Shown here piece after piece: positions 37,739 to 40,143 of a DNA stretch of 64,000 nt (position 1 is the first letter of the stretch; each line of letters starts with the position of its first letter). Source of the stretch: Leptolyngbya sp. PCC 6406 (GTDB taxonomy: Bacteria > Cyanobacteriota > Cyanobacteriia > Phormidesmidales > Phormidesmidaceae); NCBI RefSeq assembly GCF_000332095.2, contig NZ_KI913949.1, positions 5,373,673 through 5,437,672 on the forward strand, in the 5' to 3' direction. The translations under genes and the position numbers were made by a program. A model generated the notes under the pieces. That model saw only the letters and a list, made by a program, of their open reading frames with translations. It was not told the DNA's origin and made no database searches.

Positions 37739-37814
37739 GTCACTCTCTATAACCTGAGTTCGACAAGGAGTAGAGGGCTAAAAAACGTCAATTCGGTATC
37801 AGCGCTGTCACCCC

Positions 37815-37837
37815 GCCGGGAATTCAAAATTCCCGGC
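37815..37837 (+). terminator. Perfect hairpin after NUDIX gene
   Basis: GCCGGGAATT, loop CAA, then AATTCCCGGC, about 75 bases after the stop codon. No T tract follows; it may be a transcript 3'-end hairpin or a REP-type element. Confidence 0.45.
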
Positions 37838-37846
37838 TAACAGGCT

Positions 37847-38168
37847 TATAGCGCTTCTCACTCGGGTTAAGTACACGACTTGGAAGGTTATGTCTTGGGA
37901 CGAGCTGAAAAGCCTGCCACATCGTTGGCTCCATACAGACATCCAGTTCCCTGAGCGGAGTCGAAGGGAACGGCCAGAACCCGGTGGTGTGGCTGGCTTT
38001 CTCCCTTCGGGAGACGCTGCGCGAACGACTCCGCTCAGCCAGCAGTCAACGGGCTCGGTTCTCTGTAACCTTCCAAGTCGTGTTAAGTAAAGGCAAGGGG
38101 CTTAAGCCCCTTGTTCCCCGAATTGCCATCAAGTTGAGCTGGACCTCATCCATTAGGGAACCGCTATA
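37847..38168. mobile_element. Repeat family A element, split by a nested insertion
   Basis: Begins TATAGCGCTTCTCACTCGGG and ends GGGAACCGCTATA, the two ends being inverted repeats (TATAGCGSTTC). The inside holds CAAGGGGCTTAAGCCCCTTG. The copy at 40038-40143 is uninterrupted (106 bp). Here the sequence TTAAGTA is duplicated and separated by the 209-base element at 37874-38082. No coding capacity. Confidence 0.85.
37874..38082. mobile_element. Miniature inverted-repeat element, family B, with target duplication
   Basis: A 209-base element whose ends are perfect 17-bp inverted repeats, CACGACTTGGAAGGTTA at 37874-37890 and TAACCTTCCAAGTCGTG at 38066-38082. It is flanked on both sides by TTAAGTA (37867-37873 and 38083-38089), a 7-bp target-site duplication. 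A related, inverted and longer copy lies at 39693-40021. No frame encodes a recognisable protein. Non-autonomous transposon moved by an unknown transposase. Confidence 0.88.
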
Positions 38169-38185
38169 AGTCCATTAAAAATGGA

Positions 38186-38330
38186 CTAGTACCGCAGAGC
38201 GTAAATCAGTCCACTATTGTCGCGTCAGCCCAACATTTTCCGGTCCCCTCTCCTCTTGGGAGAGGGCTAGGGTGAGGGGCCGAGTATGCCACGAGAGAAC
38301 GGCCAGGGTATTTACGCCGCCCAGTACTAG
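38186..38330. mobile_element. Miniature inverted-repeat element, family E, copy 1
   Basis: A 145-base unit from CTAGTACCGCAGAGCGTAAAT to GTATTTACGCCGCCCAGTACTAG (imperfect terminal repeats) with an internal GGGAGAGGGCTAGGGTGAGG block. A left-truncated copy is at 51190-51308. No coding capacity. Confidence 0.7.
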
Positions 38331-38442
38331 GAGCTGGGCTGGAGATAGGGGGGCGAGTCTGTTTTAACAGACTTCTGCCCATCCGCCAGGGCAATTTATT
38401 CCCTGGCGGATGGGCAGCGAAGCTTAAGTCGAACTCAGGTCT

Positions 38443-39327
38443 CTACAACTCCTGTCCGTGGCGCTGTTCGTACTGGCGCTGGCGTTCCTGCTGACGGCTG
38501 CGCTGCACTGGGGTCAGGGTATTGTGGCAGTGGGGACAGGCGATGCCCGGTTGATACTGGGGGTGGGCCTTGTCCGCCGCGCTGATGGGGTGGCCGCAGG
38601 CGCGGCAGAGATCATAGCTGCCCGGTTGCAGCCCGTGGCCCACCGCCACCCGCTCATCAAAGACAAAACATTCCCCCTGCCAGAGGCTTTGCTCCTCGGG
38701 GACGGTCTCTAGGTATTTCAGAATGCCGCCTTGGAGATGGTAGACCTGTTCAAAGCCCTGCTGGAGTAGGTAGGCCGTGGCCTTTTCGCAACGAATGCCC
38801 CCAGTGCAAAACAGGGCCACCTTGCGGTGCTGGGTGGGGTCGAGGGTCTGGTTGAGGGAGTTGGGGAGTTGGCGAAAGGCGGCGGTGCCAGGATTTACGG
38901 CCCCTTGAAAGGTACCGATCGTCACCTCGTAGTCATTGCGGGCATCGATGAGCACCACCTCAGGGTCTTGAATCAGGGTGTTCCAGCCCTCTGGGGGAAC
39001 GTAGGTGCCCACCCGCTGGCTAGGGTCGGCCTCGGGGCAGCCCAGGGTGACAATTTCCCGCTTGACCTTGACCTTCATACGACCAAAGGGAGGCGCGGTG
39101 GCGGTGGACTCCTTAACCATTAGGTCGGTGAAGCGCTCGTCTTGGCGCAGGGTAGCGAGGAGATCATCAATGGCCTCTCGACTCCCGGCAATGGTGGCAT
39201 TGATGCCTTCTGTGGCCAGCAGGATGGTGCCGAGCAGAGCGGTGGCGTCACACTGGGCCTGTAGCCGTTCTTGCCACTGGTGGCAGTCGGGCAGAGCCAC
39301 AAATTTGTAGAAGGTGGCGACAATCAC
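38443..39327 (-). CDS. trhO: tRNA uridine-5-oxyacetic acid pathway hydroxylase, rhodanese family
   Basis: Rhodanese-domain protein of the TrhO (YceA) family, which hydroxylates U34 of certain tRNAs without oxygen-derived prephenate. An N-terminal acylphosphatase-like domain (VIVATFYKFVALPDC, LLATEGINATIAGS) precedes the rhodanese domain (about 125-235), with the active-site cysteine in VALFCTGGIRCEKATAYLL. A C-terminal zinc-binding region has CRACG and CPHCH. I choose the GTG at 39327, with GGGAG ten bases upstream, giving about 294 residues; the frame continues to a TTG at 39387. Surrounded by repeat elements on both sides, with no operon partner. Confidence 0.9.
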   Translation of the reverse strand: MIVATFYKFVALPDCHQWQERLQAQCDATALLGTILLATEGINATIAGSREAIDDLLATLRQDERFTDLMVKESTATAPPFGRMKVKVKREIVTLGCPEADPSQRVGTYVPPEGWNTLIQDPEVVLIDARNDYEVTIGTFQGAVNPGTAAFRQLPNSLNQTLDPTQHRKVALFCTGGIRCEKATAYLLQQGFEQVYHLQGGILKYLETVPEEQSLWQGECFVFDERVAVGHGLQPGSYDLCRACGHPISAADKAHPQYQPGIACPHCHNTLTPVQRSRQQERQRQYEQRHGQEL

Positions 39328-39406
39328 CGCGCGGTCCTCTCCCTGAATCTGGGTACGGTTCTGGGGTATCAACGTAAGCCGAGACAATATTGCTTCCGAG
39401 GAATTT

Positions 39407-39692: not shown

Positions 39693-40021
39693 CACGACTT
39701 GGAAGGTTACGGAGAATCGAGCCCGTTGAACGCTGGCTGAGCGGAGTCGCAAGTCTTTCAGACAGGCTACGCCCTAGCTTTAGCCTTAGCGTAGCCATGC
39801 CTAAGGCTATTGCCCCTTGGGCTATACGCCCTGCGTCTCCCGAAGGGAGAAAGCCAGCCACACCACCGGGTTCTGGCCGTTCCCTAGCCCCTCCGGGGCG
39901 GCAAAGCCAACGACTCCGTTGCTCCCTAGGGGAGCCGCTAACGCGAACAGGGAACTGGATGTTTGTATGGAGACAACGACGTAGCAAGCTTTTCAGCTTG
40001 TTTCAAGACATAAGGGACGTG
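39693..40021. mobile_element. Family B element, longer and rearranged copy
   Basis: Starts with the intact 17-bp end CACGACTTGGAAGGTTA. Over much of its length it matches, in inverse orientation, the 209-base element at 37874-38082 (for example the GTTCTGGCCGTTCCCT and GAACAGGGAACTGGATGTTT segments). It is 329 bases long because of extra internal GC-rich sequence (GCGTAGCCATGCCTAAGGC). Its right end, AAGGGACGTG, is diverged from the perfect terminal repeat, and no target duplication is visible, so it is probably immobile. Confidence 0.7.
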
Positions 40022-40037
40022 CGTCTAAATGAGGACT

Positions 40038-40143
40038 TATAGCGCTTCTCGCTCGGGTTCAGTACAGGCAAGGGGCTTAAGCCCCTTGTTCCCCGAATTA
40101 CCATCAAGTTGAGCTGTACCTCATCCATTAGGGAACCGCTATA
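40038..40143. mobile_element. Repeat family A, complete copy
   Basis: A 106-base element with ends TATAGCGCTTCTC and GGGAACCGCTATA (inverted repeats, one or two mismatches), an internal perfect 20-bp palindrome CAAGGGGCTTAAGCCCCTTG, and the spacer CCATCAAGTTGAGCTGTACC. It serves as reference for the copies at 22302-22364, 37847-38168 and 50971-51057. Confidence 0.82.

Follow-up and report, generated by a model that had tools for sequence, protein, structure and literature searches.

How did one short repeat come to lie inside another in the genome of Leptolyngbya sp. PCC 6406, in what order did the two arrive, and what kind of enzyme moved the inner one? The locus lies in the window, the whole stretch of 64,000 nucleotides analysed here, and the original prediction for it was of nested miniature transposons (element B inside a family A element) with a 7-bp target duplication. 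Here we report that B is very probably a non-autonomous MITE that was moved by an IS701-like DDE transposase, inserted into a resident A element and is now orphaned in this genome. The nested MITE itself is real and well supported, and is an ordinary, already-known sort of mobile-DNA fossil; it matters because the survival of a MITE family beyond its transposase can be traced here cleanly and in full, the insertion sequence (IS) being intact in a genome of the same genus.

Structure of the nested locus

Direct reading of the sequence confirmed, to the base, all of the predicted coordinates for nested B and its TTAAGTA flanks (Table 1). The terminal inverted repeats of B were perfect over 17 bp, with CACGACTTGGAAGGTTA at 37874–37890 and its exact reverse complement at 38066–38082, and this 17-mer occurred 3 times in the window with ≤3 mismatches, cf. 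0.10 occurrences expected by chance. When the A flanks were joined across B and one TTAAGTA was removed, the product was exactly 106 bp, the same length as the uninterrupted A copy in the window; it differed from the commonest genomic A sequence at 3 positions and from the uninterrupted window copy at 5. The outer TA on either side of the split A was read as its target duplication. Rather than being common to all A copies, the nest with a complete B was present in 1 of the ~41 in the genome, namely the window copy. One other A copy (L011, G000:C1:2348461-2348587) contained a truncated B, ~6 bp from the equivalent position of the window nest.

Table 1. Features of the nested locus and related copies in the window (window coordinates).
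Feature	Position	Strand	Remarks
Host element C	37752..38440	+	Ends ACCTGAGTTCGAC / GTCGAACTCAGGT; flanks CTCTATA / CTCTACA; interrupted by A and D
Family A element split by B	37847..38168	+	322 bp = 106 + 209 + 7; ends TATAGCG..CGCTATA
Left 7-bp target duplication TTAAGTA	37867..37873		Direct read; most other B copies likewise duplicated
Element B, 209-bp MITE	37874..38082	+	Sequence read directly; no ORF ≥80 aa
Right 7-bp target duplication TTAAGTA	38083..38089		Direct read
Element D within C	38186..38330	+	CTAG at both borders
Second B copy, ~335 bp	39693..40027	-	Carries additional internal modules; one end eroded
Uninterrupted family A copy, 106 bp	40038..40143	+	Sequence read directly

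The truncated B–A junction in L011, at nearly the same A position, and the proximity of B and A at 39693–40143 and at G000:C1:5044758-5045219 would be compatible with an origin of the nest by recombination or duplication of repeats, with no insertion of B. However, the exact 7-bp duplication and the exact restoration of a 106-bp A are the signature of an insertion, and the L011 junction differs in position and has lost one side, such that we regard a recombinational origin as very unlikely.

The nest proved to be larger than originally proposed, as both the A copy and another element, D, are contained in a larger one, C. The bases flanking C match at 6 of 7 positions at the window copy, and duplications of 7–8 bp were seen at other C copies. 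Uninterrupted C copies were ~227–241 bp long (e.g. L200, L201 and L209); the A site was AGGCT-TA-AGTCC in those without A, and the D site was GGACTGGGAGC or GGACTAGGAGC in those lacking D. At this locus C came first, followed by A and D in either order, and B arrived after A, so that four nested families record an order of insertion at a single site. The right duplication of C (38441–38447) overlaps a neighbouring rhodanese-like ORF (38443–39387, minus strand) at its stop codon. The orthologous intergenic region of G003 was unrelated DNA, without C, A, B or D, and thus provided no clean empty site; a scan of viral contigs with the neighbouring NUDIX-like gene found nothing.

Copies and target duplications of B in the genome

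Copies of B were counted as search matches in the host genome (5.78 Mb in 3 contigs, 99.96% complete). The 17-mer gave 75 matches with ≤3 mismatches, 39 of which were exact, cf. 7 for a reversed-pattern control, and 22 copies of B had both ends. These two-ended copies spanned 152 to 310 bp, according to the presence or absence of internal modules. Perfect target duplications were found at 13/22 (7-bp in 9 and 6-bp in 4), and 4 further copies had a 7-bp duplication with one mismatch, giving 17/22 when one mismatch was allowed. Since 462 mismatched pairings of left and right flanks yielded 1 perfect 7-bp match and 0 perfect 6-bp matches, these duplications were not chance matches. The 7-bp targets were mostly T-N5-A. 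A recognisable duplication was absent at four to five of the 22 copies, yet most B copies have one, and the genome-wide search with the 17-bp end came out in favour of the prediction. Overall, nested MITEs with a 7-bp duplication were strongly supported by the B duplications across the genome and by the 106-bp length of the restored empty site.

B is short and non-coding, has 17-bp inverted ends, occurs in multiple copies and is flanked by target-site duplications, as expected of a MITE. B was found in no plasmid record. Alternatively, selection might have spread B as a structured regulatory or RNA element not derived from a transposon, and the 209-base strand was indeed more stably folded than its shuffles (z = -5.4). 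This is highly improbable, as the fold consists mainly of the inverted ends and palindromic modules, Rfam gave no match in the region, large modules distinguish B copies from one another, and the copies have duplications of the transposition type.

Insertion sequences with B-type ends

Neither single-sequence nor profile search found a transposase for B in the genome that carries it; the matches obtained were all ≤26 bits and look like fragments of other transposases. A resident IS4-family element with nine full copies was considered as the mobilising element, as one copy (4971148–4972581) is framed by B-like ends (1 and 3 mismatches) spaced 1434 bp apart, with an intact 399-aa IS4 transposase between them. 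The other aligned IS4 copies, however, have quite different common ends (CTTAACGGGTGACAAGG..CACCCTGTAAG) and duplications of their own; thus, IS4 termini are not shared with B, and at 4971148 a diverged B-type element has received an IS4 insertion. The 1434-bp element (at 4971297) was rejected as a partner of B on these grounds, and mobilisation by IS4 is exceedingly improbable. This locus (L090/L253, G000:C1:4971148-4972581), with IS4 retaining its own ends, mimics an autonomous B.

We searched for the exact B end in 59 relatives and found pairs of ends ~1.46–1.48 kb apart, each with a 448–449-aa ORF, in G019, G033 and the same-genus genome G001. Intact ISs with B-type ends measured 1.46–1.50 kb and were present in the same-genus genome and other cyanobacteria; profile and protein searches added ISs, either intact or partial, from other genera and from Acaryochloris plasmids. 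The 17-bp ends were identical to those of B on intact ISs of G001 (duplication TGACAAA), G117 (6-bp duplication) and G033, one base was changed at one end in G019, and ends that differed by one to a few bases accompanied 6–7-bp duplications in G059, G067, G171, G024, G032 and two Acaryochloris plasmids. Measured IS ends were of the CACGACTTGG type, with CAGGACTTGG in G059. Duplications of 6–7 bp were present at all 4 G059 copies, one G171 copy, and the ISs of G117, G067, G024, G032, G001 and the two plasmids, while that of G004 was 8 bp, and none was seen at the ISs of G019, G033 and two G171 copies. The autonomous element with the same ends that had been anticipated was therefore found in relatives, but is absent from the genome that carries B.

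The transposase of these ISs is 448–449 aa long, and D103, D225 and E349, assigned by inspection as the DDE catalytic triad typical of IS701, were invariant in 7 sequences. The nearest model was IS701 (NCBIfam NF033540) at ~89–97 bits, which does not reach the family cut-off of 150 bits. A PDB sequence search returned marginal Tn5 matches only (E ~0.3). The target duplication of the IS701 family is 4 bp, unlike those of the partner ISs, almost all of which were 6–7 bp (8 bp in G004). The partner ISs thus resemble IS701 by profile and DDE residues, differ from it in score and duplication length, and are a coherent IS701-like group with 6–7-bp duplications that is unnamed by the family models used.

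Proposed origin of B

The IS of G001 and B have the same 17 bp at their ends and duplication lengths in the same range, and these matches suggest that this transposase group mobilised B in trans. A DDE transposase of the group would bind the 17-bp ends, cut B out or copy it, and B would then insert at a staggered cut of 6–7 bp, usually at T-N5-A. One such insertion would have put B into an already resident family A MITE (of the TA-target, IS630 type) inside element C. The transposase gene is now absent from the genome, and B is therefore orphaned here and would be mobile only if the enzyme returned.

B and the ISs have just the 17–19-bp ends in common and their interiors are unrelated, such that B did not arise by simple internal deletion. 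In being short and non-coding, with inverted ends, duplications, many copies and a partner IS recognised through its ends, B resembles bacterial and cyanobacterial MITEs (e.g. Nezha; PMC10969869), but it differs from Nezha-type MITEs in its ends and partner group, in a partner that is absent from the host and in a modular interior. G021, G025 and G027 were rich in B-type ends, yet no transposase of the 448-aa group was found in them; a different enzyme is thus conceivable as the partner. In G021, ten contigs (C3, C6, C8, C13 and others) start 101 bp inside an element that ends in the B terminal repeat. Elements with the same 17-bp ends and different interiors were seen in G009 (L175, 125 bp) and G025 (L176, 227 bp, with one base changed at one end). 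Since different MITE interiors are thus associated with the same ends in other genomes, the ends appear to be sufficient to define the mobile unit.

Plausible partner and relative age of family A

A TA target duplication, as expected of an IS630-type MITE, was visible for family A by comparison of A in C with empty C copies and at an IS4 transposase gene. This gene (L254, G000:C1:4534700-4535700) is interrupted by an A copy, and the duplication is seen relative to intact copies of the IS. The genome contains 8 copies of a 1021-bp IS630 with ends TATAGCGGATTTC, and terminal TATAGCGG is common to this IS and family A. The first 8 bp of the ends are identical, and ~20 of 30 bases, counted by eye, agree at one end. 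The resident IS630 is a plausible partner of A, which is like IS630-type MITEs in its TA target and terminal TATAGCGG, and unlike them in that end similarity past 8 bp is only partial.

The original prediction placed family A first. This was correct for the locus, but not for the families as a whole, as the 28 full A copies had a median identity of 97.2% (7 were identical), whereas that of B copies was 91.8%. Because its copies are less diverged and a plausible IS630 partner is present, family A probably remained active to a later date than B. The perfect ends of the nested B had also been taken as a sign of recent mobility; they provide no clock for this copy, as the 17-mer is found exactly in distant genera and the copy is 5–6% different from its nearest full-length relatives. 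Its exact conservation in distant genera indicates that the 17-mer is held by function.

Internal modules of B

B copies differed by units of 24–33 bp that were cleanly present or absent. In the alignment, all four combinations were found among B copies for modules 1 and 3 and likewise for modules 2 and 3, which implies repeated gain or loss, or recombination between copies. A tentative and rather doubtful reading is that the interior of B serves as a landing platform for mobile modules of 24–33 bp that insert or leave cleanly. Cyanobacteria are known to contain very small mobile repeats (Elhai et al. 2008, as cited in PMC4390886), and the B modules are like the small dispersed repeats of that secondary account in their size and clean presence or absence. 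Two B copies at different loci (L062, G000:C1:4346214-4346423, and L065, G000:C1:1399797-1399979) had the same sequence over 183 bp, the only differences being a 26-bp module (TCTCCCTTCGGGAGACGCTGCGCGAA) and one T.
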